From Clavulina sp. PMI_390 (Eukaryota; Basidiomycota; Agaricomycetes; Cantharellales; Hydnaceae), in assembly GCA_015039315.1 (NCBI GenBank), contig WIDE01000032.1, forward strand, positions 320,339-379,240: 58,902 nt of DNA, given 5' to 3'. A program made the translations under genes and the position numbers. The notes under the pieces are model-generated. The model had not been told where the DNA came from. It made no database searches and saw nothing but the letters and a program-made list of their open reading frames with translations. Positions 10,446 to 58,902 of this stretch are shown here, piece by piece (position 1 is the stretch's first letter; each line of letters opens with the position of its first letter).

Positions 10446-10881
10446 TTTGAGAGGAGGGCTTGCTGGACGCGTCAACAATTGAGGGACTCTGGAGAAGCCG
10501 GAAGCTCTCTTCAAGCTACTCAAATAGTCTTGCCTGCACAAGCTTTTCAATGGCGGTGATTGGCCATGAGAGTCAAGACGTAATCTCGGTCCCTGCCAAG
10601 ACATCATCTAAACAGGCTCCACACAGTCCGGAAATTCACCCAATCTAGCCGCTGTGTCCAGAAACGGGTGCCAAGAGCATGCTGGGAGGTGGTATGACCG
10701 TTAGGCAAGAAAATACATAATCGCGAGAGAATTCACAGGGCTGGTAAGTTTTATCACGCGGCAACGGTTACGGCAAGATTGACATTGGGAACGAGCTTGT
10801 AATTGCGGGAAGCTGAATTTAGATCTTCGTCTGGCTTCGTCCGTCGAGAAGTCTAAGAGCCGCAAAGTAGTTTGAAATCGC
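10446..10881. other. Spacer between tandem cysteine-rich paralogs
   Basis: 436 bp that must hold the promoter of copy 1 and the 3' UTR of copy 2. Short frames here (10701-10910 and 10460-10648) overlap exon ends or have no conserved features. No gene supported. Confidence 0.5.
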
Positions 10882-39851: not shown

Positions 39852-42800
39852 ATGTCTCAACAGCGTTTCTTTGAAATCGATCGTGAGTCTCGCCGGATTG
39901 TCACTGCGTTTTCCGGGCAACGTCTCACCACCCAACAATTGAACAATGTAGAAGCCATCTATCATGGCCCCCAACTCAAGCCAGGTGCCTCATATCGCCT
40001 TGCAATTGGATGGAATGGTCCCGATCTTTCGAACGAATCAATGGTCAAGTCCAAGCAAGTGAAGCCAAGTGATAACGATGGCGACAGCTTTCAGTGCATT
40101 TGGAGCCTTCCGTCAACAGGCAAACGGTTCGTCTACTCATACCCAGTCAATTGGTGATCTCTGATCGTCTTTTCTTAAATAGATTCTTTAATCGACTTCC
40201 CGATCAGGTCTCAATCACGATCCAATACCACCGAGTTCACATCAAATGGACGGATGTGGTTATGTTCACGCTGGACTGTGCGAAGGACTATAAGATGGAA
40301 GGTGTGCTAGCGTGTTCCAGCCAATAGCTGCTCATCTTGTGATTTTGCGCATTGTCTTTCTTCCAGATGTGATCCTCAATCGTCCTGGGGACAGCCAACT
40401 GGTGCTTAGAGCTGCAATTGTCGGCAATCCCGCAGCCTTGGCGCCTCCTGTTCCCAATATCACTGCCGTGACATCTGAGGCTGCGGCACACGGTAAGGGT
40501 TCAGCCCAAGGATTTGTTCATCTCCTTTTCCGTGTGTACTAACCTCTGGGCGCTATCATGTACAGATGCACTGGCCACTTCTTCAAGCACTGCTACTACC
40601 AACTCTCTGTCTACCGCGCGCTCAAGCGCTCCTTTGGATGCGCAACTTGTAGCAGATCAGACTGAGAATGTCTTTGCGTCGCTGCCTGTCCCAAAGCCCA
40701 GTCCTGTCGTCACCATGGTTGATCAGGTTAGCGGCCCTGTGACACGAGCCTCTGAGGCTGCCTCCACACTCAATGCTGGGTTTCCAATGCTTCTTGATGT
40801 GCTGGAGAGATTTATGAAAATTGGAGATGTTCTTGCTCAGGTACAGTCACATTGACTAGCCCTCAGTTCATGACTGAAACACATTGCATATGGACTGACA
40901 TCTCTATAGGCCCATCCCATTGCAGCTGCAGCATGGAGTGTTGTCAATGTAGCATGGCAGATCATTAAGGCTAATAGTGCACTTGATGGTAGTGTGCAGG
41001 GGCTTGTCACAAACATGCATGATACCTGCCAGCTGGTAGCTTGTTATGAGTCTGGCCATCCCAACCTCCAGGAAGCAGTTCAAGCTGTGCTTCATCAGGT
41101 AGTTAAAGGGGGGTATATCTTGAAAAAATATGGCAAGGTTTATAATCAAAGTAAGTACAACCTCTGTTTGAAGGCTGAATATTGTTTCATCATACAACAT
41201 TCCCCAGGATTCTCTTCCTTCAAAACCTACTTCTCCAACCTTCAACAGGATGTTGATGCATGCTCTAGTGAGCTGGAATCACTCCATAAAAAGTTGTCAG
41301 AGCATACCAGTGCTGTGACTCTGAGTGAGCTGGGAAGAATTTCTCAAGGTGTAGAGCAGCTGGGTAGGTTGTTGCTGAAAAAATATCAGATTCTTGTGCT
41401 CAGTTTTGGGTTACAGTTGCTAAAGAGTACTTCCAAGAGCTGCAGTATGCTGAAGCAGCTGATAGTGCATACCGTGCTCATGCTCCTGACTCTGGGTGCC
41501 TTCCTGGTACATGCACTGAAATCCTCAATGCTATTGTGAGCTGGATCTCTGGTGGAAGCCAGCTTCCCAATCTCCCCCCATACCTCAACTTGCTTGTGCC
41601 AGACCAGCATGTGCTATGGCTCTGTGGTGTTGCAGGCTCTGGGAAGTCATCTATTGCTCTATCTGTGGCCAACAGCTTGGGGGATCTTTCTTCCTCAATT
41701 GTATGGGGATTCTACAGATTTTCTACTGCCAATCAGGCAGCACTTGATCCCAAAAAGTTATTCAGTACACTGGCATCGCAGCTTGCTGCACAAAATCAGT
41801 ACCTGTATGGAAAACTACTGGAGATCATCAAGGGTGTGGATTCACGCATCCGTACATCCCTCAGTCCCAAGGAGCAACTAAACACATTCCTGCTTCCATT
41901 ACTGAGGTCCCTAGAGACTTGCCAATCTGCCCATCATGCTGTTATTATCATTGATGCCATTGATGAGGCTGGAAATATGAGAGCTAGGGCTGAGATACTT
42001 TCTCTGCTTGCTGGGCTAGGTCCAAACTTGCCCCTTAATGTGCAGGTGCTCATCACCTCCCGCTTTGAAGATGATGTCCATAAGGCACTTCAATTGGGGC
42101 CAGAGGACAGGTGCATGCTCCATATGAGCCAGATTTCTAGACCTTCTACAGAGCATGACATTTTGCTCTATGTCAACCATATGCTCAAGAATGCATTTGA
42201 GCTCCCAGCTGCAGATTATGCAATAGAGCTCACACAGCTTGCTGTAAAGTCTGAAGAGTCATTCCAGTGGGCATCCACTGCTTGTCTCTATATTATCAAT
42301 TCAGATGATGGCAATGCTGGAGAGAGTGCTGAGGAGAGGCTTACAACAGTCCTTAACTCCAATAGGCATGGACTTTATGAGCTGTACAGAACTGTTCTCA
42401 CATCCAAATTTGGAAGCTCTCCTAAACCAATGCTACAGGCTATATTGGCAATATTGGTAGTTGCCCAGGAGCCACTGTCTACAACTTCATACAGCTTGCT
42501 GGGCCAGCCTGAGTGGGATCCAAAAATCAAAAATGCACAGGCAGAGGTGTACCGGCTTGTGCGCTGTCTTGCATCCTTGATTTCTGGGACTGAGAATATC
42601 AATCATCCTCTGGTGCCACTACACACATCTTTCACAGATTTCTTGCAGGATGATTCCAGTGGGGAGTACATTGTGAAAGTCCCAGCATCTCATATGTTGA
42701 TGGCCTTGGGATGTATGCATGTTATGCAAGATCCAAAATATGGTCTGCATTTTAATATCTGTCAACTGGAAACCTCATTCAAACACAACTCTGAGGTGGA

Positions 42801-43863
42801 AAATCTTCCAGTACTTATAGAGCAGCATATTTGTGGAGCCCTGCTATATGCATGTCACTTTTGGGCTACACATTTAGCAGCACTGACAACTCCAAATACA
42901 AGCCTGTTGAAGAAGACAGAGACTTTGCTGTGTACAGCTCAACTTCTTCACTGGATTGAGGTGATGAGCCTTACCAATGTATCCCCAGCAACACCATTGT
43001 CACTATTGAAAGCCAAAGGCTACAAGGTGTGGATTGTGATGCATCCTGCAAAGAGGGAATAGCATTGACATCTTATATTATAGCTTGATCTAGGAATGTC
43101 TGATATGGTACAAGAGGCACTACATTTTGTGTCCTATTTTGCCATTCCAATAGCAGTCTCAGCACCACACATCTACTTGAGTGCTATGCCATTTATTCCA
43201 TCCATGTCACCACTTAGAACCCTTGAGGAAGATTTTCAAAATACCATGTCTGTTACTGTAGGGGCACTGGACACATGGCCTGCACTAAGGCAGACATTGC
43301 AGCATGGAGAGAGAGTTGCTGCACTTGCACTATCTAAAAATGGATGGCTACTTGCTGCAGGTCTGGGTAATGGCACAATATGCCTATGGGATTTAAGGAG
43401 TGGAGAGCTTGTTCCACATCACCATGAGCAGCCCATGAGCCAGGGCCATCCACTCTACAGTATGGCACTCTCCCCTGATGGTAAACTGCTTGCCTCTAGT
43501 GGCTCTGCCAATACTATATGCCTCTGGAATGTTCAGTCCCAGAGTATGAAAGGAGAGCCTCTTAGAGGGCATGATTCTTCAGTATACTCTGTGGCATTCT
43601 CCCCTGATGGCAAACTGCTTGCCTCTGGCTCTAAGGACAATACCATCTGCCTGTGGGATGTCCAGTCCCAGACCAGAAAGGGAGAACCTCTCAGAGGTCA
43701 TGACCATTATGTAGACTCTGTGGTATTCTCCCCTGATGGCACACTGCTTGCCTCTGGTTCTATGGACAATACCCTCTGCTTCTGGGATATTCAGTCTGGG
43801 ACTGCAAAGGGGGAACCATTCAAAGTCCATAATCCTTCAGTATACTTGTGGAAGAGCAAGTAG
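39852..43863 (+). CDS. NLR-like protein: N-terminal domain, NACHT NTPase, truncated WD40 array
   Basis: Fungal NLRs of the HET-E/NWD2 type sense signals through C-terminal repeats and oligomerise through NACHT. Exons in phase: 39852-40126, 40183-40301, 40367-40492, 40566-40840, 40910-41150, 41208-41348, 41390-43026 and 43084-43863, giving 1197 aa. The first 160 residues look like a beta-sandwich and are unfamiliar. A helical linker follows. NACHT has the P-loop GVAGSGKS (472-479), VIIIDAIDEA (577-586) and LITSRFEDDV. A winged-helix/linker region leads to SAPHIYLSAMPF, typical before WD40 repeats. WD40 units start near residue 1017 and stop abruptly in the fourth high-identity unit with LWKSK. 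The break coincides with a candidate LTR at 43847, so the native C-terminus is probably lost. The sixth intron (41 nt) is short but restores frame. Confidence 0.85.
43444..43846 (+). repeat. Near-identical WD40 units in the NLR gene
   Basis: Units at 43444-43566 (123 bp), 43567-43695 (129 bp) and 43696-43824 (129 bp), then a 22-bp start of a fourth (43825-43846). The protein core is GHDSSVYSVAFSPDGKLLAS followed by GSKDNTICLWDVQSQ. The units are very similar at DNA level, as seen in recombining HET-D/E-type arrays. Confidence 0.85.
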
Positions 43864-44622
43864 GCTTTACCAATGCTGCTACCAGAATCAGACTGCAGTT
43901 TTCCATTCCCTGCTTCTCATCCCTTGCTCTTTGTTCCTAGCTTCCAGTTCCCTGCTCCAAGCATCATGCCAATCCGGCCACTCGCCTTCTTACCTTCTCT
44001 TCTTTTTGATCTTCAAATACTGTGGTTCGTTTCTTGATATATGTCGCACCCTGCTTCTTGTCCCCAAATCCCCTTTTCCATTTCACGTTGCTACCTATAT
44101 ATACCTGGCTGTCCTTGATAGTACAGCGGAGGAGAGAACGAATCAGGTTATACTTTCCCCCCATCATTTCCACACAGCCACCTCCACTTTCCCCTCATTT
44201 CCCTCACTTCCCCACATCCCATATCACATTCCCTTCCCATTTCATATCCACTTCCCCTCTTACCCCATCCTACTTACTCATCCACAATACATATACTTCT
44301 TGGTCCATATTGACCTTTGGTCATCATCTCTGAGTCATCAAGCAGACTAACAACTCGGTTCTCCCTCGTTGTAACAAGTTGGAGCCAGGCGCTAGTAGGA
44401 GTCCCAGGGTGGATTGTCCTCAAGAGTGTCCCAGCCCATTGTTAGCCAGGTCCAGCCCAGCATATAGCGTCTTCTACCACCTCAGTTAGGAAGCCCCACT
44501 GTCCATTCAACCCAACAGTATCCATTGTGCATAGCCAAAGTACTCAACTGCGCACCACGAACCGCTCCTGATTCTCAACTGCACTTAGCCCACGCACGCT
44601 AAGATCCTGCGGCTCGCCCACA
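43847..44622 (+). repeat. Candidate 5' LTR
   Basis: Starts TGTGGAAGAGC exactly where the fourth WD40 unit stops matching its sister units (after CTTCAGTATACT) and ends CGCCCACA three bases before a TGG-starting primer site, fitting the TG...CA rule. Length about 776 bp. It has long C/T-rich stretches (44160-44280). Not proven, as the partner LTR is not in the window. Confidence 0.5.
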
Positions 44623-44625
44623 AAT

Positions 44626-44643
44626 TGGTGATCCACGCCGGGA
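44626..44643 (+). other. Candidate tRNA primer-binding site
   Basis: TGGTGATCCACGCCGGGA begins with TGG (complement of tRNA CCA-3') and lies just inside the candidate LTR end. It is the expected place and form for minus-strand priming. I could not assign the tRNA. Confidence 0.55.
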
Positions 44644-44799
44644 ACTTTTTCACTCACAAGGTCATTACACGTGTTGAAAAAGGGTGCTCCCAGTTGAAGT
44701 CACTTCACACCACCTGGAAGATTTGCCAAAATTTTTCATTCACAAGCCTCATTCCGCTCAGAGGACATCCCAAGTCTTTTTAGCTCAACCAACTCCGCC

Positions 44800-47700
44800 A
44801 TGTCCATCAGCAACCAAGGCCAACAGGAAACAGACCCCATGTCTCCTTTCACCCAGCCTACCCCACCTAACCTGCCAAACATGCCACCCCCTCTATTTCA
44901 AAATACTACCTTTGCACCACCTCTGCCACAAGTGCAACCCGTGTTTGAAGCTAATGCACACACAGCTTTTACCTTTGAACCACACCACCACCCCAACACA
45001 TTTCATGCTCCTCCACCCATCCGCTCATTTGTCTCAAATATGCCAGCACCCTTCTCAGGAAGAGCTCCCAAATTCAAAGGGAAGGATGTCCGCATGTTCC
45101 TGAAACAATTCAATGGACATGCTGATGCCGCAGGACTGAACAACCGAGAAAGATGCGAGAAGGTAGGCGCATATTGTACCCCAGATATCCAAGACATTGT
45201 ACAAGCACTCCCGCAAATTGGATACCATGATTGGGAGGCTGTCCAGACACAATTATACCAAATATATGACCCTGAAGGCCGACGAGACCGATACTCACGC
45301 ATGGATCTAGTAAAACTCAGCGAGAAAAAACGAAAGATCAGAAACGCCACTGATTACGCTCAGTACCGGCGAGACTTCTCAACCATCTCAACTAACATCA
45401 AAGCCACACAATTTGTATCCCAGAATGATATCAACACGTACTTTTGGAAAGGAATACCCCGCAAACTGCGCTGGGAATTCCTGATCCTTCTCAAAGAATC
45501 AAACCCGTCGCTAAGCAAGGACGAGGCGCCCAGCATGACAACGGTCCACGACATTGCGCTACGACTTTTTGACGACGACTCCGTAGTATCAACAAAAGTA
45601 GTACCGCCGAGAAAAAGAAGCTCAGACCGAAAGCATACAAGGCAATGCTCCCACCACAACAGCTCTGCATCCAGCTCAGAATCGAGCTCAGAATCAAGAT
45701 CAGAGTCGGAATCAGACTGTAAACACAAACATTCTCAACAACATCATCAACGGGAGGCAGATTCAAGCAACGAGGACGGAAGCGATGATGACAATGATGA
45801 CACATCTCACCGCCGGAAGGACAAGCACCGTCGATCGCGACGTGATTCGGGCTCAAAACTGAAGGGGAGCTCGCTCATCATGAACGAAGTATTGATAGAG
45901 TTAAGAAAGCAGAACGAGTGGCGTAATGAAACTAGAACGGCAAACGTCAGCGTCGGAGTCGCCCCAGCACAAGCCCAGTCATACACACCTAATTCAAACA
46001 ATCAAGCCCAAGCGCCCCCTCCTCAGAATGCCCCTGCACCTAATCCTCCCGTCCCATACCAGAACCACTACCAAGCCAACCCACAAATTCCATACCCCGT
46101 CCTTCAACCGAATCCATTTGCCGCCATGACCCCTAACCCAGCACTCCTTGCCGCATATGCAAATGCTATGGCACAAGGGAATCAGCAATCATTCACAAGA
46201 CCGGTTGCACGAACGCAAGGATGCTACGTATGCGGAGGAATCAACACTCACGAAAGAGGGAATAACAACTGCCCCGAAGCACAGAAGCTATTAACCGAGG
46301 GACTCTGCATACTGAGGAATGGACGGATCATGATGGCCGACAACACGGATCCCCCGTATCCCAATAGAACCACTGGCGAAAGCAGAGCTGCAGTCATTCG
46401 GCGAATGGGCAATATGCGTCGCGCACCAAGCGCAAATGTTAGCAACGCCGAATCCAGATGGATTCCAGACTTTGCAGCCTCAGGAGCACGCGTTGTCCAT
46501 CATTCTAGGTTGGGAGAGTCAGGAGCTGACTCAGGAAGCGAAGACGACTACGGCCTACCTCCGGACTGCACCTACTACCAAATGGTCTCGGCACTCCCAG
46601 CAGCAACGGAGACCGCAGGCCGCAAAAACTTTTTTGCTCCTAACCCTACCACAGGACGGCCTGAACGAGCAAAGTCTCGCGAGGTTTTTGACGGAGTAGA
46701 GCTCCCACCAGCACCTCGTCCGGCAAAGAAAACTGTCAGCACCGACACGACACCCACTTTCATAGTCGATAACTCACCAGGTGAACCCGCGCCATTCGGA
46801 ATCTCCGACGCTAACCGAACGCCAATCAATACAACGAAGCCTAGATACGTGGCCCCTCGACCACCAACACCGGGATCTTCCAAAAGCGCATCACGACCTA
46901 ACACGCCAAGTAACGAGAGGTCAGTGGACGCAAATGGAAAAGGAAAGGAGACACCAGCAAAATTTTCGAACGTACCAGGTGAACCACGCATCCCGCGAAC
47001 TGAGCCCGAACCTCGCATCAAGGCCCCACCAACGAAGGCCGCAGAAGAGGAGGAATCTATCAAAAACAGGATTCAGCAACTCGCTCATGAACATGCGGCA
47101 GCAATGATGCATACCATATACTCGGCGCCCGTTGCGGATCTCATCAAAATCAGCCCACACTTCCGCCGCGCAATCATTGAACAATGTAAAAAGCCTACGG
47201 TGGAATCGGTCTCAGTGGCTGTAGAAGAAGCAGAGGAAGTAGACATGCCTATGGAGGTACCAATCCCTTCACACGCAGAAGTGCGGCCGTTCCATATCAC
47301 TGCTGCAAAGTTTGCCCCAGGACTCGAGGCACAAGCACAAACGTCGAGGATGGTTACAATGGCATCCGGCGTCTTCTCGATCATGGTAGGAGGAATTCGC
47401 CTCAAAGCTATGATCGACACCGGCGCCGAAATCTGCTTGATCACTCCTACGGGTGTCCGAATGATTGAAAGAGTCTTCCCGCTTGAAACACGCATGCCTA
47501 CAATATCGGTAACAGGCGTCAGTGGCACGTCGGAATTCACTCGAGGACAAATCACGAACTTACCAATGGAGATACTAGGCCATGAGTTCCGCCAGACGGT
47601 GTTTGCGAATCATTACGACGGGAGTACTTACCAGCTCATCCTGGGCCAGCCATTCTTGATGAACGCAGCTGCCAGCCTCCGATATAAGCGCGAAGGCACA

Positions 47701-50700
47701 GTTCACATATTCCTTCAACCTCGAAGCCTTGACAGTGACAAATCAATTCGAGTGGCATTGAAAGCGGGAAGAGGACTACCGCACCTTGGTCGACGAGCAA
47801 GAGCATGCGCCGCCGAGATCGAGAAAGTAATCGACATCAGCGACGATGACCCACCGGGGCAGAATAACTCACAGAACGAGATCGAGCAGAATGACGACGC
47901 TCCTCCCAACCAGCAATCGCCTGAAATGACCGATCATGGCAGTGAGCCTGGGGAAGGGAAGATAATCGAGGAAGACAGCAACTCACCAGCACAGTCAGCC
48001 GACACAAGCGGATATCGTATCGACGACGACCGCAGCGACTCGCAGAAAGAGAACGAGGGCGGTATTGAAGAATCCCCAGCGCTAGCTGAAAGACACAGGC
48101 AACCCTCAGGCAGCACTTTCGGCCGATCGTTCAAATTCACACTCCCCGTCGACCCTCCCAATCTTCGACCGAGACCCGTCCAGCCCTCAGTTTTCCTGCA
48201 AAGCAACCCCCGCCATCCAGGAAAAACAGCTTTGAGTAAATTCAAACCGGCTAGGCCAATGATTACACCAGCGAGCGTACCTATGATGAGGCAGGAGGCA
48301 ACGGCGGCTCCAAAAGCCACGTCCACCCCAGTCTACCGTCCCGTCTATCACCCATCGGACATCCCATCTGACAGTCGCAAAGCAGAGGAGGGACCTTTCG
48401 ACGCTAACAACGACTTTTTCGAAGCACTCCAGCATGCCCGAAGAAGCCAAAATGACAACACCACATACCTAGACAAGAGACAGTTAGGCCTGCTATATGA
48501 CGCAACACGATTTCGAAGGACGTACGACATACCGATTGGAAACAAAAATCTGGTTCTCGACGAAGGAGAAATGGTGGTCCACATCAACGGAATACGAACG
48601 AAGACAATAGTAGAGCCGGAAGTCAGCATGAACCTTATTTCACGGGCACGAATGGAGATCCTGGGCTTACCGGTCACGACAACGCAAATCGGCGACGGCC
48701 GACACATACAATACTGCCAAGTACCCATCCGACTCGAAGCATGGCCCGTATTTCAAGGAATCTTCCTGGTAACGACGCAGCGCATCCCAGGAAATTTTGA
48801 CGTACTATTAGGGAAGCCTTGGTTAATGGGAATCGAACGACGCTACGAAGGACACAGAATCGACGGATCTTTAGCAACGCGAAGATCGGGCTTTCAAGTG
48901 AGGAGTGACGCCGATACCTTACCATTTCCCCTTGCTACCGATATCGATTGGCCACGACCGGTGAAACCCATGCCGGTCGAATCAACACCTCTGAAGCGAA
49001 CGGTTGGACACTGGACAGCGCCGTCGCACGAAGGGATATCTACATACTTTGCACACTCCGCCAAAGTGGTAGTATCGGCCGAATCCTATGCAAGTGATGG
49101 AACAGATTGGGACAGTGATGATGATGAAGAATCAGTAGTGATTTGGGAAAGCTCGAACGACGATACTGACGATGACAACTGCGTTCTAACGCTCGAGGAC
49201 GATGAAGACAATTATGTCGACGACGACGACCCCTACACCTCCGAGTACGACGATCTGGATAGCGACGGTGAAGAAAGAATGGTGCAAAAATCAGAAGTCA
49301 GCATTCAGGCCGATAACAAGGAAACTTCACGCTCACTTATCGAAGGCGACGCCGAGGAACCACAAAAGGGGTCCGGGCCAGACGAGACCGAGGAGAGTGA
49401 AATCGAGAAACCTCGACCAACCTGGCAAGCTCCAAAAATTGGGTCAAAAAGCGCAGGCATCATGTGGCGAGCCCGTCACGAGCCCGAAACCATCACGAAA
49501 AGCGAAGCTGCAACATTTGTTGGGAAAGTTATGGTCAATGACAAAGGATGGGTGGCAACGAAAGAAGGAACATACCCGAGAGCAGAAACCATCCGAAACA
49601 CGCCCTCCCGCGCAGCAGTGGAACATTTATGCAAACTCGCCAGAAACGGCGACGACGACAAAGAGTTGACCACAGAAATCGAAAATCGGCTGAAAGAATG
49701 GACCGAACCACAGCCGCGAGTCGAAGTCAACGGCGCACAGTATAAACCTAAAGAACTAAGGATGAGACCAGTGCCCGTCAGCGCCCCAAGCATGCCACGA
49801 GAGCCTTACAAACCCATTCCAGAACCAGACGTACCTGACATGCCGCATCACCCGCCAAATTGGCGCAACTATCCCTACTCAGAACGACTCACGCGCGAGC
49901 GCGTGGCCGTTATCATGGATGGAATCGAACCGGACTTCCTGAGCGACGACGAGACGTCCCTACTGATGTGGGTCGTGAGCCAAAACGAGTCAGCGATAGC
50001 CTTCGAAGACAGCGAGCGAGGAACTTTCAAACCTGAGTACTTCCCCGACTATACGATGGAGGTGGTGCCACACACGCCTTGGCAGGAGCGCACCATTCCC
50101 ATTCCACTCGCAATCAGGGGCGAAGTCGAAGAACTATTGAAGAAACAGATAGAAAGTGGAAATCTAGAGCCGACATACTCATCTTATCGCTCGAGTCTGT
50201 TCGTGGTGAAAAAGCCGAAGGGTGGCCTTCGCGTCGTCCACAACCTCCAGCTCCTGAACTCGGTCTCGGTACAAGACGCCATGCTACCACCAAACGTATC
50301 TGATTTTGCAGACGGATTCATGGGGAAGGCGATATACGGGACAATGGATTTATACTCGGGTTTTCACCAGAGGAGACTACACCCGGATTCGAGGCCTCTG
50401 ACGGCGTGCCAAACACCAAACAAGATACTCGTACAAATAACAACACTGCCGATGGGCTACACCAATTCACCTCAGGAATTTCAGCGATCCACTGACCACC
50501 TGGTAGCGACGATGACGTCTGAAGCAGCCGACGCGTATATTGACGATATAGGAATAAAAGGCCCTGAGTCAATTTACAACAATGAGACTATCCCTGAAAA
50601 TAAGAACATCCGGAAATTCGTCGCGGAATATGCTCGAACGCTCTACAAATGCCTGGCAACTCTCGTAAAAGCTGGAGTAACGGCATCTGGAACTAAGCTG

Positions 50701-53343
50701 GTACTAGCCACTCGGGAAGTTGAAATCGTCGGGCACACATGCTCTCTCCAAGGCATTCGCCCTCGACACGGAGCAATAACAAAAATTTTGAACTGGCCGA
50801 TCCCCCAATCCATCACGCAGGTTCGCGGCTTCCTAGGGGTCGCAGGGGTGTGCCGAAACTGGATTGCCGGATACTCCTTTGTGGCGAGACCCTTGATTGA
50901 CTATACATTGAAAACCGTAACGGAATTTGTCTGGACAGCAGTCGCTGAGGAAGCATTCAATAACGTGAAAAAATGCGTCTCCCGCATGTCGGACTTGAAG
51001 AAATTGGATGTACAGGCTGCACTAAATGCCTCGAAATCACAGGGAGCGCTGCTACAACACGGTCGACTCGTCCTTGCCGTCGATACCTCGCATATTGCTA
51101 TTGGTTTCGCACTTTTTCAGCTATTCGACGGTAAGGATAAAGATCTACAGCCCCCGGAAGATGGAGAACCGAGGCGGAAAAATCAACCTCGACTGCTCAG
51201 GTACCCTATCCGCTTTGGGTCTATCAGCCTCAACCCAACAGAGAGCAGATACTCGCAGCCAAAGCTCGAGCTGTATGGACTATTTCGAGCGCTCCGAAGC
51301 CTTGAACCTCTCGTATGGGGGTTTCGAATTGTGGTGGAAATCGATGCAACATCCATACCTCACATGGTGAAAAATACAAGCTTGCCCAATGCGGCAATGT
51401 CTCGATGGGTACACCACATCAGACATTTTCGCATCAAATACATACACATACCGGGAGAGAAACATGTCGCCCCCGATGGCCTATCTCGACGGCCCCACGC
51501 TCCAGCGGACACGGAAGAAACCGATGTTGACCAAGTATCCGACCAGGGCGGTCGTTTTATCAAAGCAAAGTGGGACGGACGGGTACCCGAGCCAATGAAA
51601 TTAGAACTCTCCGACAGCGAAGAATCCCTGGTCGACGAGGCATCACTAGCCGAAGGCGGGAGCTACGAAAAATCTATTCTCAATAAAAATAAAGGCACAA
51701 TGGATTTGCCATCCCCGCAGATCAATCTGGCGTCAACGCGACACACGCGCCGCGATGATAATGAGTCGATCAAGGAGCCAGCGACGGCTAGTCAATCGGA
51801 CGAGAATGATTTACCCACTCCCCAATCAGATATTCCGAAGAAGAGCCAATCGGCACAGCCGAGCCCCACAAATATCCCCGCACGAAAGAAGCCCGCAGAA
51901 AAGCAGCCAAGTTCAAAAAGCGACGGAGAATCGTCCGCATCGAGCTCCAGCGATGTCGCACCCGCAGAGCTCATGCTCATCAGGGTCCGTCATTACCTCC
52001 TGAATAAAACAATACCAACAACCGTGCTGCCATCAAAGCACAAAGCCTTTCTAAGACGTGCGCGAGAATTTTTCCTACAGGAGGGATTTATGTGGAAACA
52101 CGCCCGAGATGCACCAAAAAGAGTGATATTCTCAGGCAATAGTCGTCATGACCTTATCACAAAGGCGCACAATGAGTCAGGGCACCGAGGCCGAGACCCA
52201 ACCCTGAAGAAGCTCTCGGATTTCTATTATTGGCCGTCAATGTGGAGAGAAGTCGGCACCCACTGCCGAGCCTGTGTGGAGTGCCAGATGAGATCCACCC
52301 ACCGACCCATCGTGCCGGTAAACCCCACATGGGTCCCCACAGTATTCAGAAAATTTAATTTGGATCTAGTTGACATGGGGATCACCTCAGGAGGCTACAA
52401 ATTTATTGTCGACACCCGGGACGATCTGTCAGGATGGCTCGAAGCTAGAATGCTGACCCACAAAAACGCCGATGACGTCGCGAACTTTATCTGGCAAGAT
52501 GTGATTTGCAGATTTGGCTGCATCCCGCAAATCACCACGGATAACGGCTCGGAGTTCCAGGGAGCCGTCGACATCCTTGCCGACCGATATAACATTAAGA
52601 TTGTGCACTCATCACCCTACCACCCCGAAGGAAATGGGATGATCGAGCGAGGGCATCGTACTTGGATCGAATCAGTATGGAAAATGTGTCAACGGCACAA
52701 AAATAAGTGGAGCGATTGGTTCTACTCCGCAATGTGGGCCGATCGAGTCACCGCTCGTCGATCCACGGGTTTCTCTCCATATCACCTCATCTATGGCAAA
52801 CCCCACGTTTTCCCTTTTACACTGGACGAGGAGACTTGGTATTCAATCGATTGGCACAATATAGAGACCACTGAAGATTTACTCGAAGTCCGAGCGCGGC
52901 AACTCATGCGGCTCCGCCAAGATCGCTCAGCAGCGGCTAGAAGGAATATTGAAGTCCGCAGAAAAGCAGCAGACCAGTTTGCTCAAAAGAATGCCAGCCG
53001 ATTGGTCTCAGGACTCTATCGCGTAGGAGAGTATGTACTGGTCGCTCTCAAAGGCACCAAGCTGAAGAAAGGGTACGGACGAATCAAATCGGCAGACCGA
53101 TGGGCCGGGCCTTATCGAATTCACGGACGATATGCTTCGGGATCTTATGCACTCGAAGAACTAGATGGGTCGATTCGCCGAGGAGCGGTCGCAGCAAGTC
53201 ACCTCAAGCCGTTCTACACAACTTCGGACCAAGTTATCGGGCAAGATTTAATTTTACAATCCGACAGCGATTTCTCTGGAGAGTTCATGTGGACTGCTAG
53301 CGAAGAAAGCGATGACGCTAGGGACTCGCCGTATATCGAGTAA
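44800..53343 (+). CDS. Gag-Pol polyprotein, Ty3/gypsy type, with duplicated protease domain
   Basis: One unbroken frame of 2847 aa, so Gag and Pol are fused without a frameshift. Order: Gag capsid-like region (about 83-260, FSGRAPKFKGKDVRMFLKQF); a Ser/Glu/Asp-rich spacer; a zinc knuckle variant C-x2-C-x5-H-x6-C (475-491) instead of x4/x4; retropepsin 1 with AMIDTGAEICLIT (Asp873) and LILGQPFL (about 946-953). An acidic spacer leads to a second retropepsin-like domain with TIVEPEVSMNLIS (1269-1281) and VLLGKPWL, lacking D-T/S-G. The RT has the YIDD catalytic box (1913-1916); RNase H starts LAVDTS (Asp2095). The integrase has the HHCC zinc site (His2457, His2462, Cys2492, Cys2495) and catalytic Asp2522 or Asp2525, Asp2581 and Glu2616 (35 residues apart), with a basic C-terminus. 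All key sites but the second protease look intact, so the copy may be active. Confidence 0.96.
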   Translation: MSISNQGQQETDPMSPFTQPTPPNLPNMPPPLFQNTTFAPPLPQVQPVFEANAHTAFTFEPHHHPNTFHAPPPIRSFVSNMPAPFSGRAPKFKGKDVRMFLKQFNGHADAAGLNNRERCEKVGAYCTPDIQDIVQALPQIGYHDWEAVQTQLYQIYDPEGRRDRYSRMDLVKLSEKKRKIRNATDYAQYRRDFSTISTNIKATQFVSQNDINTYFWKGIPRKLRWEFLILLKESNPSLSKDEAPSMTTVHDIALRLFDDDSVVSTKVVPPRKRSSDRKHTRQCSHHNSSASSSESSSESRSESESDCKHKHSQQHHQREADSSNEDGSDDDNDDTSHRRKDKHRRSRRDSGSKLKGSSLIMNEVLIELRKQNEWRNETRTANVSVGVAPAQAQSYTPNSNNQAQAPPPQNAPAPNPPVPYQNHYQANPQIPYPVLQPNPFAAMTPNPALLAAYANAMAQGNQQSFTRPVARTQGCYVCGGINTHERGNNNCPEAQKLLTEGLCILRNGRIMMADNTDPPYPNRTTGESRAAVIRRMGNMRRAPSANVSNAESRWIPDFAASGARVVHHSRLGESGADSGSEDDYGLPPDCTYYQMVSALPAATETAGRKNFFAPNPTTGRPERAKSREVFDGVELPPAPRPAKKTVSTDTTPTFIVDNSPGEPAPFGISDANRTPINTTKPRYVAPRPPTPGSSKSASRPNTPSNERSVDANGKGKETPAKFSNVPGEPRIPRTEPEPRIKAPPTKAAEEEESIKNRIQQLAHEHAAAMMHTIYSAPVADLIKISPHFRRAIIEQCKKPTVESVSVAVEEAEEVDMPMEVPIPSHAEVRPFHITAAKFAPGLEAQAQTSRMVTMASGVFSIMVGGIRLKAMIDTGAEICLITPTGVRMIERVFPLETRMPTISVTGVSGTSEFTRGQITNLPMEILGHEFRQTVFANHYDGSTYQLILGQPFLMNAAASLRYKREGTVHIFLQPRSLDSDKSIRVALKAGRGLPHLGRRARACAAEIEKVIDISDDDPPGQNNSQNEIEQNDDAPPNQQSPEMTDHGSEPGEGKIIEEDSNSPAQSADTSGYRIDDDRSDSQKENEGGIEESPALAERHRQPSGSTFGRSFKFTLPVDPPNLRPRPVQPSVFLQSNPRHPGKTALSKFKPARPMITPASVPMMRQEATAAPKATSTPVYRPVYHPSDIPSDSRKAEEGPFDANNDFFEALQHARRSQNDNTTYLDKRQLGLLYDATRFRRTYDIPIGNKNLVLDEGEMVVHINGIRTKTIVEPEVSMNLISRARMEILGLPVTTTQIGDGRHIQYCQVPIRLEAWPVFQGIFLVTTQRIPGNFDVLLGKPWLMGIERRYEGHRIDGSLATRRSGFQVRSDADTLPFPLATDIDWPRPVKPMPVESTPLKRTVGHWTAPSHEGISTYFAHSAKVVVSAESYASDGTDWDSDDDEESVVIWESSNDDTDDDNCVLTLEDDEDNYVDDDDPYTSEYDDLDSDGEERMVQKSEVSIQADNKETSRSLIEGDAEEPQKGSGPDETEESEIEKPRPTWQAPKIGSKSAGIMWRARHEPETITKSEAATFVGKVMVNDKGWVATKEGTYPRAETIRNTPSRAAVEHLCKLARNGDDDKELTTEIENRLKEWTEPQPRVEVNGAQYKPKELRMRPVPVSAPSMPREPYKPIPEPDVPDMPHHPPNWRNYPYSERLTRERVAVIMDGIEPDFLSDDETSLLMWVVSQNESAIAFEDSERGTFKPEYFPDYTMEVVPHTPWQERTIPIPLAIRGEVEELLKKQIESGNLEPTYSSYRSSLFVVKKPKGGLRVVHNLQLLNSVSVQDAMLPPNVSDFADGFMGKAIYGTMDLYSGFHQRRLHPDSRPLTACQTPNKILVQITTLPMGYTNSPQEFQRSTDHLVATMTSEAADAYIDDIGIKGPESIYNNETIPENKNIRKFVAEYARTLYKCLATLVKAGVTASGTKLVLATREVEIVGHTCSLQGIRPRHGAITKILNWPIPQSITQVRGFLGVAGVCRNWIAGYSFVARPLIDYTLKTVTEFVWTAVAEEAFNNVKKCVSRMSDLKKLDVQAALNASKSQGALLQHGRLVLAVDTSHIAIGFALFQLFDGKDKDLQPPEDGEPRRKNQPRLLRYPIRFGSISLNPTESRYSQPKLELYGLFRALRSLEPLVWGFRIVVEIDATSIPHMVKNTSLPNAAMSRWVHHIRHFRIKYIHIPGEKHVAPDGLSRRPHAPADTEETDVDQVSDQGGRFIKAKWDGRVPEPMKLELSDSEESLVDEASLAEGGSYEKSILNKNKGTMDLPSPQINLASTRHTRRDDNESIKEPATASQSDENDLPTPQSDIPKKSQSAQPSPTNIPARKKPAEKQPSSKSDGESSASSSSDVAPAELMLIRVRHYLLNKTIPTTVLPSKHKAFLRRAREFFLQEGFMWKHARDAPKRVIFSGNSRHDLITKAHNESGHRGRDPTLKKLSDFYYWPSMWREVGTHCRACVECQMRSTHRPIVPVNPTWVPTVFRKFNLDLVDMGITSGGYKFIVDTRDDLSGWLEARMLTHKNADDVANFIWQDVICRFGCIPQITTDNGSEFQGAVDILADRYNIKIVHSSPYHPEGNGMIERGHRTWIESVWKMCQRHKNKWSDWFYSAMWADRVTARRSTGFSPYHLIYGKPHVFPFTLDEETWYSIDWHNIETTEDLLEVRARQLMRLRQDRSAAARRNIEVRRKAADQFAQKNASRLVSGLYRVGEYVLVALKGTKLKKGYGRIKSADRWAGPYRIHGRYASGSYALEELDGSIRRGAVAASHLKPFYTTSDQVIGQDLILQSDSDFSGEFMWTASEESDDARDSPYIE
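49365..49382 (+). repeat. 18-bp exact repeat, copy 1 (in pol)
   Basis: AAAGGGGTCCGGGCCAGA inside the acidic linker before RT. An identical copy lies at 53423-53440, 80 bp after the pol stop. Confidence 0.85.
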
Positions 53344-54138
53344 AAAGACCATGTGTGGGCAGATCGCAGAACACCAACAAACCAAAACAACAGCGACCTC
53401 TCCACAACGTGCTGCGACAATCAAAGGGGTCCGGGCCAGATCCGAACGGACCCATACCAACACCATTTCCTCTGCTTCCTTCTGATTTCTTTTTCTACTT
53501 CTTCCCCTCTCTTCCAATCCGCCAAAAAGGCAACCTCGTTCAAATATCCTCGACGATCAACCGAAAGCACTCAGTCCTCCCTGCTCACCCACCAAACTAC
53601 TCAAAATGGCTACGAAAGAGTCGCCCTGATCCTCTGTCTCTATGAGGATAGATCCTGCGGATCCTGAGCTTCTCGATTACAGCTCGAAAGACTGGCTGGT
53701 ACGAAACACAACCCAAAATACAAAGCAAACGAAAGAAAACTCTGACAAAAACGAAAAATAAACTCGTATCCAGCTAGCCCAACATGAAGCGAAGCCCATA
53801 AATACCACCGTATGAAGACCCGAGGAAAAACAAGGCAAGAACCCCTCTCCAGTCCAAAGTATCTCCCCCGCGTCGTACACATCACACCCCAAAGCACCTT
53901 CCTTCGCTCTCAAAAATTTTCTTTCATTTTCCTCGATTCCGTTTCTTTGCTCGTTTCTTTGCCCTTGCCTTCGCCTCCTTCATCTACCTGCGGAGTGTCT
54001 GCTTCGTCACAAGCCACGTCGACGACTCGTGCGCACGCGCCTCCCAATCGCAGCACACCTATTGTTTTATCGTCAAATTCCATCCCAAATCTTACCTTTT
54101 CTCTCCCTTTTCTTCATCAGATAACCCGACAATCGAAG
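53344..54138 (+). other. Post-pol leader of the downstream ORF
   Basis: 795 bp from the pol stop to the likely start of the next ORF. It contains the second 18-bp repeat (53423-53440) and a strongly C/T-rich run (53880-54130). The frame of the next ORF is open back to an ATG at 53812, but those 109 codons read as translated pyrimidine-rich DNA (LVSLPLPSPPSS), so I treat them as 5' UTR. No LTR end recognised here. Confidence 0.5.
53423..53440 (+). repeat. 18-bp exact repeat, copy 2 (after pol)
   Basis: Same AAAGGGGTCCGGGCCAGA as at 49365-49382, same orientation. Purine-rich start. Confidence 0.85.
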
Positions 54139-57100
54139 ATGTCTAACTCTGTCGTCACATCGTCCGGTTTTATCAAACCCGTTTCCGCTCGCACTCGGAA
54201 TGTGCTCACGCGCCCGATCGCTCAGTACCGCGCCCCTCGTCGTCAGAACAAGCGCGGAAAGAAGAAGGCCACAGCCGTTCCGAGCGTTTTCTTTTCCCCT
54301 TCCGTTCCTCCTTCGGCTCTCATGCCACCTCCTCCCCCTCCAAGCCACGTTCTCCTCCCTGCACCGATCATCAGGACAGTCCCTGCCAAAGGTCCGATCC
54401 CCACCGGCCCTCGTCTTGAGGCGCTCTATGCCGGCAAGACTGCCTGGCACCCTCCCACGCCTCCGAGAAAGAGTGCTCAACATGGTACGGCTCCAACCCA
54501 AACTAACAACGACCCTTACCGCGCTGACATCGACACATTCCTAGAAAAAGTCCTCAGCAAGCTCAAGACGAATCAGGCCGTTCGACCTCGCAGCACCGGC
54601 GGACCCGGCAGGATCGAGAAGTCGCAGTCGCGAGCCTCGCCTGCGCACGCGAACGATTTCCAGAACGAGTCCCCCTCTCCCTTCCGCAAACGCGCTCCTG
54701 CCCTCTTCATCCCATCCTCCTCTCCCTCCTCTTCCTCTGATGACGTGCCCCTCCTTGATGCACCGCCTGGCTTGACTCTAGCACCCCGTAGGAGCCCCAT
54801 CGAGCTCCCCTCAATCGACGTCGAGATGCTCGGCGACGAGCTCTCTGACGATATGCCCGACCTCATGCCAGTCCACACCAAGAAGACCCGCAAAAGCAAC
54901 CACAGCACCAGCACGGGCGAGGCCAACGTCTCCACCGACTCGCTCCCCTCCTACCAGTCAGGCACAAGCGACCGTCTGCTCGAGACGCTCATCGAACTTA
55001 CGCGCGAGAGCATGGCTGAGAACGCACGACACCACGAGGAGGAGTCGCGAGCACGCCGCGATGCCGTCTCGGCGGCAGATAATGGGCTCAAGGACCTCAT
55101 GAGCAACGCGCGAGGAATGCTGGCGACGCTTGAAATCTCCGAGCCCCAGCTCTCGAGGATCATGGACTCCTTCCTTAGGAACTCCGAGCAGAACACGAAG
55201 ACTGCGCAGATCCTCGCCAAGACCGCGAAGGACATTGGAGACGATACGAGGATATACCAGACCCTCTCCGAGCGTCAGGACATGCATGTAGCACGCAATG
55301 GGTTCATAACGCTGTGCATGCAAATGGAGTCGGAGGTCGATCGACTTTTCAAACCCCTGTTCTCCGGACTGGTCCCCGCCACCTGCGAAACCATGGGCGA
55401 GCTCACAGTATTGGGAATCGAGCCCGCTAGTCTGCGAGGCACGGCGCTCCAGCTCGTCGCCGACTTCTCATCCACTTGGGCCACGATCACACAGACCCCG
55501 AGTCATGTGTACAAGTCCATCACCGCCTTTACCCTTGCAAGACTTGGCATCCCCCACCTCCACTCCGTCCTTCACACTGCGGCTGTCGTTGTTGACTTTG
55601 TCGCCTCAGTTGTCGAAGCCGGGCGAAAGTTCTTCCCTGAGGATACACTCCACGCTAGGATCCTTGGAGCAGCCTGGAAGGGAGGCATGCGAGTTCTGGA
55701 GTACCACTACTCAGCTCTTGTACTGCATAAAGGCGACCTTGTACACGGTGAGGGAGAGCTCCTTGTGAGCTGCCAGCGGCTTCGATCCGCAATCATGATC
55801 ATCACGATGAGGATGAGGCTACCAGAGTACTCGGTGCAAGACGGGCGTCCCATGACCATCCCCGAGATCACGCCAAACTCTGCCTCCCCCTTCCCACTCA
55901 TCACCACGCAGCACCGACGATGGAGCCTGGGTGCCGATCTACCCCTCCCCGCTTGCATCCATGCACCAACCATACACCATGGGTACATACAAACGTCGTA
56001 TGAGTGGGAGCTGGTCGTCAAGGCCTGCCATGTTGCTGGAATACGCACGGCGCCCGACATTCGAGGCATCACGGCAGGGGTTTTGGACAAGCGCGATGAG
56101 CCACTCAAAGGGCACTTCCACAGCAACATCAACGCGCCGGGGCCTCTGACGGGAGCACGTTCGCTGCTCTTCCTCCTCACCTGGCTGCGCCGTATCTGCG
56201 TCGAGATCTACGAGCGGGTGAGCAACCACTTCACAACCAGCAACCTTGCCTGGGCTTCCGCGTCAATCAAAGCTTTTGGACGATTAGTGGCTACAGTATC
56301 ATGCAGCCTAGCATATATCGTGCGCCTCATCCCCGAGCCCTTCATCATGGCTGTTCGGCTAGACCTCAACAACGTGGTCATCCATATCTCCGAGCGGCTA
56401 TCGGCAGCAAACGCTCTCCTCCCCATTGCATACCAACATGGCATCCGAGGAGGAGCGACAGCGCTCTTTCCGGAGGAGATTTATTTCCAGCTCCCCCGTG
56501 TCATTTCTAACGATCACGAGCATACCCCGGTCGTATCAAGCGCCACTGAATCGGACTCTGGCGCATCATCAGCTCCTGTCCAAGTTGTGCCGACACCGGT
56601 GCAGGGGAGGGCAAAGAAGACTGGACGGGCCCCTGTGGTCAAGAAGCGGGTGACACTGAACAAACCTAACCCCGAGAAGTTACCTGTTGTAACTTTCTCG
56701 AAAGCCCCACCAGCTACGACCAGCCTGACAATACAGACCAGTGTTACCCCGGCCACGGCAATCTCAACTGGCGGAACCGTTCAACTTCCGCCAATCTCTA
56801 CAATACCGGTTACGACGGCACCTCCATCATCAATGGGGCCCCCTCCCGTACCTCTCCCTCCGGTTGCGCCCAATCCCTTTGCCGCAAGCGTACACAATAG
56901 CGTCCGCCGGAGCGTGGTTTACACCAGGCCTCACCTCCCTCCTGCTGCGTCCGACACCCCCATCCAGCGACAGGACACGGGATCATCGGTATCCACAAAT
57001 GGTGGACCTCGCTGGCCGTACCATCGCACGCTGCCTCTGACCCAGAGTCACACGGGATCGTCGGTATCGTCGGACAGCTCCGTACCCGCACTCGTGTCAA

Positions 57101-57261
57101 TGCGTACTAACCTACCTTTTGCTTCGAGCAGCAGCGACAGCCTGGCTAGCCTGCCACGACCAGCCTCAACACAGGTGGCCATTGTCATCGACGATGACAT
57201 GCAGCATGGGGTGGAGGGCGAGCCATTCATCACAGCGATTAATGATCGCATGGAGGATTAA
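54139..57261 (+). CDS. Large uncharacterised ORF downstream of gypsy pol
   Basis: Unrecognised protein of 1040 aa in a single exon; a longer reading of 1149 aa from 53812 is possible. I chose the ATG at 54139 (context AAGATGTCT) because coding character begins there. Residues 1-300 are basic then Pro/Ser-rich and look disordered (RRQNKRGKKKA; PSALMPPPPPPS). About 300-800 is a long, mostly helical domain: DRLLETLIELTRESMAENAR and a coiled-coil-like Glu/Arg stretch, then hydrophobic helices such as LHSVLHTAAVVVDFVASVVE and SLLFLLTWLRRICVEIYERV. The last 230 residues are again Pro/Ser/Thr-rich and end acidic (IVIDDDMQHGVEGE). No protease, polymerase or zinc motif seen. High GC and no introns match pol, not the NLR gene. 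Roles to consider: a structural or accessory protein of the element, or a host gene. Function unknown. Confidence 0.75.
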   Translation: MSNSVVTSSGFIKPVSARTRNVLTRPIAQYRAPRRQNKRGKKKATAVPSVFFSPSVPPSALMPPPPPPSHVLLPAPIIRTVPAKGPIPTGPRLEALYAGKTAWHPPTPPRKSAQHGTAPTQTNNDPYRADIDTFLEKVLSKLKTNQAVRPRSTGGPGRIEKSQSRASPAHANDFQNESPSPFRKRAPALFIPSSSPSSSSDDVPLLDAPPGLTLAPRRSPIELPSIDVEMLGDELSDDMPDLMPVHTKKTRKSNHSTSTGEANVSTDSLPSYQSGTSDRLLETLIELTRESMAENARHHEEESRARRDAVSAADNGLKDLMSNARGMLATLEISEPQLSRIMDSFLRNSEQNTKTAQILAKTAKDIGDDTRIYQTLSERQDMHVARNGFITLCMQMESEVDRLFKPLFSGLVPATCETMGELTVLGIEPASLRGTALQLVADFSSTWATITQTPSHVYKSITAFTLARLGIPHLHSVLHTAAVVVDFVASVVEAGRKFFPEDTLHARILGAAWKGGMRVLEYHYSALVLHKGDLVHGEGELLVSCQRLRSAIMIITMRMRLPEYSVQDGRPMTIPEITPNSASPFPLITTQHRRWSLGADLPLPACIHAPTIHHGYIQTSYEWELVVKACHVAGIRTAPDIRGITAGVLDKRDEPLKGHFHSNINAPGPLTGARSLLFLLTWLRRICVEIYERVSNHFTTSNLAWASASIKAFGRLVATVSCSLAYIVRLIPEPFIMAVRLDLNNVVIHISERLSAANALLPIAYQHGIRGGATALFPEEIYFQLPRVISNDHEHTPVVSSATESDSGASSAPVQVVPTPVQGRAKKTGRAPVVKKRVTLNKPNPEKLPVVTFSKAPPATTSLTIQTSVTPATAISTGGTVQLPPISTIPVTTAPPSSMGPPPVPLPPVAPNPFAASVHNSVRRSVVYTRPHLPPAASDTPIQRQDTGSSVSTNGGPRWPYHRTLPLTQSHTGSSVSSDSSVPALVSMRTNLPFASSSSDSLASLPRPASTQVAIVIDDDMQHGVEGEPFITAINDRMED

Positions 57262-57891
57262 CTGGTCTCAGGGCTTTTTGTCTCGTTGGGAGAGGGGAAG
57301 GACAGGACTTCACACACACACTCCTCCACCACTTTACCACTGACCAGCACAAACTAATCAAACCCTCCCGTACCACCTCATTGGCGATCCGCTCCCTTTT
57401 CCTTCACGACTCCTTTGCATCATCGGAGACTGCTACTTTGTGTCTGCGCGACCAATGTTTTATTCTCTTGTACTCTTCTCCACCGACAACGCCATTTTAT
57501 CTACACTTGGATGGCAGCATTCCAACTATGAAAACGGGCGAATCGGGGCTTGACACGTCATCACCCCCACTCATCCGGAAGTAAAAGTTGGATCTCCCTC
57601 CGAGTGGCTGTTTATTCTCTCCTGTGCCATTTCACATCGGTCTTCTCACGCGATGTACTTCCTCTCGCCTTGCCACTTCAGATCTCTTGCAGCCCTTTTA
57701 TTCCCGCTCAACTCCATACTTCTTGCTCCCCATCAATCACCTCTTCCCCTTCCATAACTACCAGATGTGGTCCCATACAAAAACTGTCACGTACCTATGA
57801 CTCCAACACATTCAATTTATCATGCTCTTTGTCCATCCCATTCAGTTTGCGATGTTCAACTCTAAGAAGGAACCCTCAATAAAGAGACGGA
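57262..57891 (+). other. Spacer with purine-rich tract
   Basis: 630 bp between ORFs. A purine-rich tract GGGAGAGGGGAAGGACAGGA lies at about 57287-57306 and could act as a polypurine tract, but no LTR start follows. The rest is C/T-rich. Short frames without features. Confidence 0.4.
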
Positions 57892-58248
57892 ATGGCACCG
57901 CATGGGAAGACATCACAGAAGTCAAAAAGGAACCTTGCTACAATGGGAACATGGGAGAAGGTTCAATACAAAAAGAGGCGCTATAAAATGGAGAAGGACT
58001 TGGCGAAAATTTTTGGAGACATTCCAGAATGCCCCTCCGGTCTCAGCCCCATCAATAGAAAGACACAAAGCCGGTACCAGCACCTGCTAAAGAGCCAGCC
58101 TAAACACCAAAGAAAGATAGAGCGGGAGCCCAGTAAAGTTAGCTCCGCCTCCAACTTGGGAAATTCTGACCAATTGGCGGATGTTGGAGGATTTGATACG
58201 GCATTTGCAAAGAGGACAGAGGACAAACAGAAGCAAATTTATATTTAA
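57892..58248 (+). CDS. Small basic ORF in the element's 3' region
   Basis: 118 aa from the ATG at 57892, rich in Lys/Arg/Gln/Ser (TWEKVQYKKRRYKMEKDLAK, KSQPKHQRKIEREPSK). No family recognised. Its end overlaps the 5' extension of the next ORF (58181-58248) in another frame. Could be a nucleic-acid-binding accessory protein or a chance frame. Confidence 0.4.
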   Translation: MAPHGKTSQKSKRNLATMGTWEKVQYKKRRYKMEKDLAKIFGDIPECPSGLSPINRKTQSRYQHLLKSQPKHQRKIEREPSKVSSASNLGNSDQLADVGGFDTAFAKRTEDKQKQIYI

Positions 58249-58333
58249 ATATCCACATTCCCGGGGCCTCGACTCCAGCCCAACATCCCACACACTCTTC
58301 AGCTTCCCAGACTTCTCAACTGCTACCGCCCTT

Positions 58334-58765
58334 ATGACACGCTATCTTGCCTTGATGATTGCGGCGGTTTTTATCACACTTGCAGGGGCAACAATGCTCC
58401 CTCTGGCTCTACTATGGGACCCCCGCTCCAACCTCTGCCTTAGGGCTGACGCAGCTGAAGCCCAGCGGTGTACAGAATGGTGGGAGGCCAGCATCATGAT
58501 GGTGGTACTAGCAATGGCATGTGGGGCAGCAGCCTTTGCATTACGCATGGCACTTCCACCAGCCGCACGCAACACACAAGCGCGGAACGATCTGGAGGGG
58601 ATGTCACGTAACGCATGGAAGGGTTCAGCACCACCAGCCCTGCTGTTTGTTGCTTCACCAAGGCCACCAGCGCCTTTGGGTATGCATATGGAAGCAAGCC
58701 ATATGACCCAACGCGCAACCAGAAACGCAGGGGAGCAAGGCAGCCCTGCCTCACCCACTGAGTGA
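58334..58765 (+). CDS. Small two-membrane-segment protein in the element's 3' region
   Basis: 143 aa from the ATG at 58334; an in-frame ATG at 58181 would give 194 aa. Two clear hydrophobic segments: residues 3-27 (YLALMIAAVFITLAGATM and on) and about 48-73 (SIMMVVLAMACGAAAFAL). A short loop with two cysteines (LCLRADAAEAQRCTEWW) separates them. The C-terminal half is Ala/Pro/Arg-rich. No family recognised. Lying last in a multi-ORF retroelement it is reminiscent in position of an envelope gene, but it is too short and has no signal/fusion features I can name. The window ends 137 bp after the stop. Confidence 0.5.
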   Translation: MTRYLALMIAAVFITLAGATMLPLALLWDPRSNLCLRADAAEAQRCTEWWEASIMMVVLAMACGAAAFALRMALPPAARNTQARNDLEGMSRNAWKGSAPPALLFVASPRPPAPLGMHMEASHMTQRATRNAGEQGSPASPTE

Positions 58766-58902
58766 GTCCTCATGAAATCTAGGCGCTTGCATGCAAATTT
58801 TTTTTCTGGATCAAAAACATTCTACACACGAAGCCGTGGGCTGACATACAATTTCATATTCCTTCTTCTCCGCATCACGGTACTCTGCCTGAACGACCCT
58901 GC

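Follow-up and report, generated by a model that had tools for sequence, protein, structure and literature searches.

A long Ty3/gypsy lineage in the fungus Clavulina that probably carries a resident gene after pol

The right part of a 58,902-nucleotide stretch of DNA from Clavulina sp. PMI_390 (the whole stretch is called the window here) is occupied by a Ty3/gypsy long terminal repeat (LTR) element, which begins at position 43847 and carries further open reading frames (ORFs) on the same strand behind a single gag-pol frame. The largest of these is called ORF3. The window forms the right end of contig C219 (WIDE01000032.1), and its last base, 58902, is also the end of that contig, with no sequence to the right in the assembly. 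A first-pass annotation made from the letters had proposed a giant gypsy element with at least three extra sense ORFs, possibly accessory or envelope-like cargo. Relatives were sought in the genome of the same fungus (39.4 Mb, 301 contigs) and are named by their contigs (C52, C123 and so on). With its second LTR counted, the window element is at least 15.8 kb long; its features are as follows.

43847..44622, + strand: 5' LTR, 776 bp, with TG...CA ends (edges from fragments on C7 and C239)
44626..44645, + strand: primer-binding-site candidate (related TGGTGACCCGTACAGGGG at the equivalent place in C52, C123 and C260)
44800..53343, + strand: gag-pol, one frame of 2847 amino acids (aa) (ORF, Pfam domains, relatives in the genome)
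47380..47658, + strand: retropepsin domain with DTG (Pfam Asp_protease_2, residues 861-952)
48493..48972, + strand: second retropepsin-like domain, with EPE in place of DTG (hhalign of three-row alignments, E=7.4e-7)
50206..50739, + strand: reverse transcriptase (Pfam RVT_1, E=3.8e-10)
51067..51429, + strand: RNase H (Pfam RT_RNaseH, E=3.4e-11)
52141..52299, + strand: integrase zinc-binding domain, then the integrase core (Pfam Integrase_H2C2, E=7.9e-15; integrase tree)
53426..53438, + strand: weak version of GAAGTCCRGGCCA, with 2 mismatches (identical letters inside pol at 49368; 2-mismatch matches on the other strand)
53797..53806, + strand: TATA-like CATAAATACC, candidate internal ORF3 promoter (YATAAATAYC pattern)
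54139..57261, + strand: ORF3, 1040 aa, rich in Pro/Ser at its ends and with conserved segments in its core (found by a hidden Markov model (HMM) of C52 and C123, E=6.7e-16)
57892..58248, + strand: basic ORF of 118 aa, not supported as a conserved gene
58181..58765, + strand: small ORF of 194 aa (inner Met at 58334), its two hydrophobic segments separated by a stretch with C-x10-C (ORF list, hydropathy)
58766..58902, + strand: contig end, with the 3' block and 3' LTR beyond reach (the window end is the end of C219)

The gag-pol frame has the Ty3/gypsy (Metaviridae) order of protease, reverse transcriptase, RNase H and integrase, with Pfam matches that start at residues 861, 1803, 2090 and 2448. 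The second retropepsin-like domain was related to retropepsin by aligning the two groups with hhalign, at the E-value listed above. The gag-pol of C123 has two copies of this second domain, with DPD and DPE instead of DTG. A chromodomain at the integrase end, a chromovirus trait, was not found among nine Pfam families at E<=1. Viral contigs searched with the reverse transcriptase-integrase part of pol gave no match, nor did an Rfam gathering scan of 43847-58902 or PADLOC.

Whether the extra ORFs travel with pol, a check suggested in the first-pass annotation, can be read in five copies on five contigs (window, C52, C123, C260 and C132), and a long sense ORF follows pol in all of them; in this the lineage agrees with LTR elements that have a resident sense ORF after pol (5/5 readable copies). 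The relatives came from a gag-pol protein search (15 of 21 candidates scored) and from ORF3 searches, which gave C52, C123, C260, C132, C4 and a gag fragment at C76. The gag-pol search did not list the C52 or C123 copies, so copy counts are lower bounds. ORF3 has 1040 aa in the window, 877 in C52, and 567 + 310 around one stop in C123, with stop-to-stop frames of 811 in C260 and 737 in C132. In an integrase tree the window, C52, C123, C260, C132 and C4 form one clade (support 0.997), with integrase identities of 59-86% between the five ORF3-bearing copies; C4 is 52-56% identical to these.

Genome searches with the ORF3 of the window, C123, C52, C260 and C132 (3 to 7 first-look candidates each) gave matches only beside pols of this clade. 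The C260 and C132 queries found only themselves, and the searches did not link these two to the others, so that a host relative equally distant would escape. Among the members of this pol clade that could be judged, which excludes C76 and also C4, whose contig stops ~1.5 kb past pol, none was found in which pol is followed at once by an LTR. Neither an LTR soon after pol nor an ORF3 orthologue at a fixed locus without pol beside it, the two observations named at the outset as contrary to a giant element, was encountered within the limits of these searches. As a weak control, distant gypsy elements of the genome (23-28% in pol) showed no ORF3 match in loci reaching at most 1.5 kb past each match.

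By sequence comparison, ORF3 homology is good in four copies and weak in C132. An HMM trained on C52 and both C123 pieces found the ORF3 of the window (E=6.7e-16) and of C260 (2.9e-5), with the best of 1206 shuffled or reversed decoys at 0.43; in the genome search, the C52 and C123 ORF3s hit one another at E=3.4e-88. Identity is ~22-28% over forced alignment, and the C-terminal piece of C123 reaches at most 37%; values of ~22% approach those of forced alignments of unrelated proteins, and homology rests on the HMM results. The window, C260 and C132 also have an MPDL motif in common, found five times in 452,732 six-frame residues of fetched loci (repeated loci counted); in C260 and C132 it stands in another frame, ahead of the long ORF, and an intron would have to join both. 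Integrase identities of 59-86% beside ORF3 identities of ~22-28% point to a resident, fast-changing gene and not to a recent capture, and ORF3 appears to be old in the lineage.

The long ORF3 frame is not due to chance: it lies in a stretch of 1157 stop-free codons, and when 53344-58902 was simulated 300 times with a first-order Markov model, the maximum was 446 and the mean 204. The frame extends over 1149 aa (53812-57261), and the ATG at 54139 is probably the likelier start because it lies ~340 bases past the TATA-like CATAAATACC, whereas the ATG at 53812 lies only 15 bases past it. The pattern YATAAATAYC occurs once per element in the window, C52 and C123, always between pol and ORF3; it was derived from these same sequences and is suggestive only as an internal promoter. 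By eye, C260 and C132 have weaker TATA-like words between pol and ORF3, as well as intron-like breaks with fungal-type signals at the ORF3 start. The description of the extra ORFs as intronless stands for the window copy but perhaps not for these two.

The profile search proposed earlier for the 1040-aa protein gave no Pfam, PDB or database relative. Among 5.77 billion proteins, searched with a single sequence and a three-sequence profile, only the window's own protein was found among the best 7992 and 7991 word-sharing candidates scored, and the low-complexity ends of ORF3 may have consumed the words in this search. There was no match to PDB sequences at E<=1, no Pfam family above the cut-off (Perilipin reached E=0.0088 in one of three members tested), nothing notable in Pfam for the C260 and C132 ORF3s, and no match in phages. 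AlphaFold applied to 511 ORF3 residues without an alignment gave an all-helix model with a mean predicted local distance difference test score of 36.9, which was not used for a fold search. Hydropathy of the 1149-aa frame shows a single marginal segment (1.74, residues 583-601) within the core and none at the start. A cytosolic or nuclear protein with an accessory role for the element seems the likeliest reading of ORF3.

Two of the three extra ORFs claimed are supported, namely ORF3 and the small one with two hydrophobic segments. For the 118-aa ORF, the two copies compared, C123 and C52, gave no match on the same strand. A two-segment ORF (at least 100 aa, sense, between ORF3 and the 3' end) is present in four of five terminal regions (window, C52, C123 and C132). 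Such ORFs arose in 0, 0, 2, 1 and 1 of 300 simulations for the window, C52, C123, C260 and C132, respectively, and in none of the five antisense strands. The C-x10-C spacing also occurs, by eye, in the small ORF of C123.

The 3' end of the lineage is visible in other copies. A conserved 3' block (GAGGKCGTTG, then AAGTCNGGCCAYTTRTAGAAG, with small variations) lies where the last ORF ends, or beyond that point, in C52, C123, C260 and C132. C239 retains a piece that matches the end of the C132 membrane ORF at 64-69% identity; behind it come, in this order, the 3' block and an LTR-like stretch that contains a TATATAAG word, which places the boundary of the internal region at the block. A genome scan for the block at two mismatches was not above control (60+72 vs 63+80), and no copy count was drawn from it. 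The C52 copy measures ~15.4 kb from its primer site (103-120) to the block at 15470, LTRs excluded, which supports the large size independently of the window's missing end and agrees with the >15 kb proposed for the element. It had also been remarked that no 3' LTR follows pol. None is indeed present in the window, and no second LTR copy was found within 30000-58902, but this absence is an assembly limit without meaning, because the contig stops at the window end. Long N runs, possibly assembly gaps, stand where 3' LTRs or more copies are expected, in C123 (within 5001-15000), in C52 from 15594 onward and in C239 (L004), and element counts are for this reason, too, lower bounds.

Just past the pol stop, the motif GAAGTCCRGGCCA, which is related to the 3' block, is exact in C52, C123, C260 and C132; in the window it is at chance level. 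A GAAGTCCGGGCCA-type motif occurs twice in C52 (10428 and 15484) and in C132 (182 and 6275, L044 reverse complement), once behind pol and once in the block that precedes the 3' end, and may be a doubled cis signal or the trace of a 3' end that predates the gain of ORF3.

We are confident of the layout of the lineage, seen piece by piece, as LTR, gag-pol, ORF3, a small membrane ORF (in most copies), 3' block and LTR, and of the residency of ORF3 in it. The fuller reading, a long Ty3/gypsy lineage with a resident ORF3 that serves the element and a small membrane ORF, is probable, and the extra genes seem to belong to the element and not to the fungus. The giant gypsy element with extra sense genes is supported by the long ORF in 5/5 copies and by the size of C52, but 'cargo' is a less fitting name than 'resident gene', because ORF3 diverged along with pol. 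Gag-pol would provide particles, reverse transcription and integration in the ordinary way, and ORF3 and the membrane ORF might be expressed from separate messages that start internally and are spliced in some copies. As a non-membrane, largely helical accessory protein, ORF3 could have a role in particle assembly, in transport or against silencing; the small membrane protein might aid particles at membranes. These functional steps (the messages, the role of ORF3 and the membrane helper) are the weakest part of the proposal and are put forward tentatively.

Several observations weigh against a long lineage with a resident ORF3 and a membrane ORF. C76 has gag and no ORF3 in the part read (C76:1-4500, with 4501-8924 unread), and no copy has two matching LTRs or a target-site duplication, the 3' LTRs lying in N runs or past contig ends. 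Single-sequence comparisons of ORF3 are poor: phmmer between the window and C52 gave 0.082 in one direction (decoy 0.084) and 0.00044 in the reverse direction, with decoys as low as 0.0041 and 0.0089 in two other searches. The C132 ORF3 was missed by the HMMs; its only ties to the others are hhalign (E=0.0047, probability 7.5) and the MPDL motif. As for the membrane ORF, C260 has none with two segments, that of C52 is placed and laid out differently and may be unrelated, and those of the window and C123 have no detectable sequence similarity (E=0.15).

The alternative that survives best, although we consider it unlikely, is that the small two-segment ORF encodes a fusogen- or pore-like protein for cell-to-cell transfer, with ORF3 as its partner or a matrix-like protein. 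The two segments with C-x10-C in the window and C123 and their enrichment over simulations fit such a role. So do the small membrane protein for cell-to-cell transfer of the insect MDG1 group (PMC11952523) and the two segments with cysteines between them in the rotifer element Vesta4 (PMC5408684). However, there is no sequence link, C260 is without such an ORF, and the insect sORF2-like proteins are described as having one membrane segment in 63-107 aa (PMC11952523). FAST/sORF2-like fusogens, for which the same text gives amphipathic and polybasic motifs and an N-myristoylation site (PMC11952523), have a single membrane segment in roughly 60-200 residues. The ORFs of the window, C123 and C132 have two segments. 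More speculatively, a disulfide-tipped membrane hairpin might combine with ORF3, both expressed from an internal promoter, into a non-Env apparatus that passes particles between fused or touching hyphae, as an independent route to a retrovirus-like state; we think this improbable. Fungi fuse hyphae, and passage of the element between individuals could for that reason be sought directly.

That ORF3 is a captured host gene and now a mere passenger is more improbable still. Intron-like breaks at the ORF3 start of C132 and C260 (by eye) could be read in this way, but no host relative was found in the genome in searches of limited reach, and frames of 737-1040 aa have been kept in four copies though identity is down to ~22-28%. 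An envelope-like (virus-entry) ORF3, which would make this a fungal retrovirus-like element, has no better prospects. Its position after pol and its fast divergence recall the env-like ORFs found there in plant (PMC7264820) and rotifer (PMC5408684) elements. Against it, hydropathy places one marginal hydrophobic segment inside the core and none at the start, and no Pfam env family was found in the ORF3 of the window, C52, C123, C260 or C132. By hydropathy and Pfam, ORF3 does not look like the secreted, membrane-anchored fusion glycoprotein of an errantivirus, and the label envelope-like is not supported for the 1040-aa ORF; only the small two-segment protein has a suggestive layout. Least probable of all, and very improbable, is that the extra ORFs are host genes past a gag-pol element that has lost its 3' LTR, or a scaffold artefact: the window contig does end without a 3' LTR and a TATA-like word precedes ORF3, but the order is identical in five divergent copies on five contigs, ORF3 was not found apart from pol in genome searches of limited reach, and the 3' block lies at or past the last ORF in C52, C123, C260 and C132 and also at C239.

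The closest named relatives of the pol are Ty3/gypsy elements of Basidiomycota (Trametes, Ganoderma, Leucocoprinus, Lyophyllum and Puccinia), with 30-42% identity over the part covered; ORF3 was found within none of the 34 pol-hit proteins, the comparison being of the proteins and not of their contigs downstream. Among ascomycete fungi, the Boty-like elements of Botrytis reportedly have an additional antisense gene, brtn. Extra genes after pol are already known in plant, insect and rotifer elements. The plant elements have a sense ORF between pol and the 3' LTR, as here, with a spliced message in Bagy2 (PMC7264820); the Clavulina element is set apart from their description there by its fungal host, an ORF3 that is not membrane-like, and two ORFs (PMC7264820). 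The Retand lineage likewise has a long region between pol and the 3' LTR with a conserved extra protein, but its ORFs are described as antisense (PMC11963269) and those of Clavulina are sense. The LTR elements of bdelloid rotifers also have a family-specific ORF3 after pol, in Vesta4 with two membrane segments and cysteines between them (PMC5408684). Rotifer ORF3s are described there as ~600-aa fusion glycoproteins, 210-230-aa membrane proteins or enzymes (PMC5408684), whereas here ORF3 is 737-1040 aa without a known domain and stands beside a separate small membrane ORF. The sORF2 of the insect MDG1 group is likewise a small membrane protein gene outside gag-pol in elements described as without a canonical Env (PMC11952523), but has one segment in 63-107 aa (PMC11952523), compared with two segments, a greater length and no evidence of fusion here. 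No fungal lineage in which a large sense gene has stayed next to pol across deep divergence, together with a small membrane-protein gene, was found among the titles and abstract openings searched, with subscription journals mostly outside the coverage. The Clavulina lineage differs from the known systems in its host, in the size of ORF3 and its lack of relatives, and in its pairing with a small two-segment membrane protein. The lineage is a testable system for genes after pol, and fungal repeat annotation that stops at the integrase can miss about one-third of such an element.

The element is inserted in a host gene: a NACHT frame is followed by WD40 repeats, both recognised by Pfam.

41536..43062, + strand: host NACHT/NPHP3_N frame (Pfam NPHP3_N, E=2.4e-20)
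43096..43846, + strand: host WD40 repeats, broken by the element (Pfam WD40, E=9.2e-40 over 43096-43860; repeats of ~129 nucleotides up to 43846)

The left end proposed for the element, 43847, is confirmed by a C7 fragment (80% identical, LTR 1-260) that begins at the identical base and has a different flank. At the right edge of the LTR, 44622, a C239 fragment (98%, LTR 546-776) stops at the identical base, again with a different flank. Just past the LTR, TGGTGAYCC occurs at the position expected of a primer site in the window, C52, C123 and C260 and is a candidate for that site. In a scan with up to 3 mismatches there were 23 matches compared with 14 in the control, and only matches with 0-1 mismatches were used (C52, C76, C123 and C260). 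Exact matches on C293 and C295 to the 15-mer at the LTR end turned out to be non-LTR.

All three sites with the window's LTR family (window, C239 and C7) lie within ~3 kb of DNA that resembles the window's WD40 repeats, which possibly reflects an insertion preference or common repeat-rich surroundings. At C239:32808-33506, beside an N run, the fragment of this LTR family adjoins the 3' end of a C132-like element and is likely a nested insertion.

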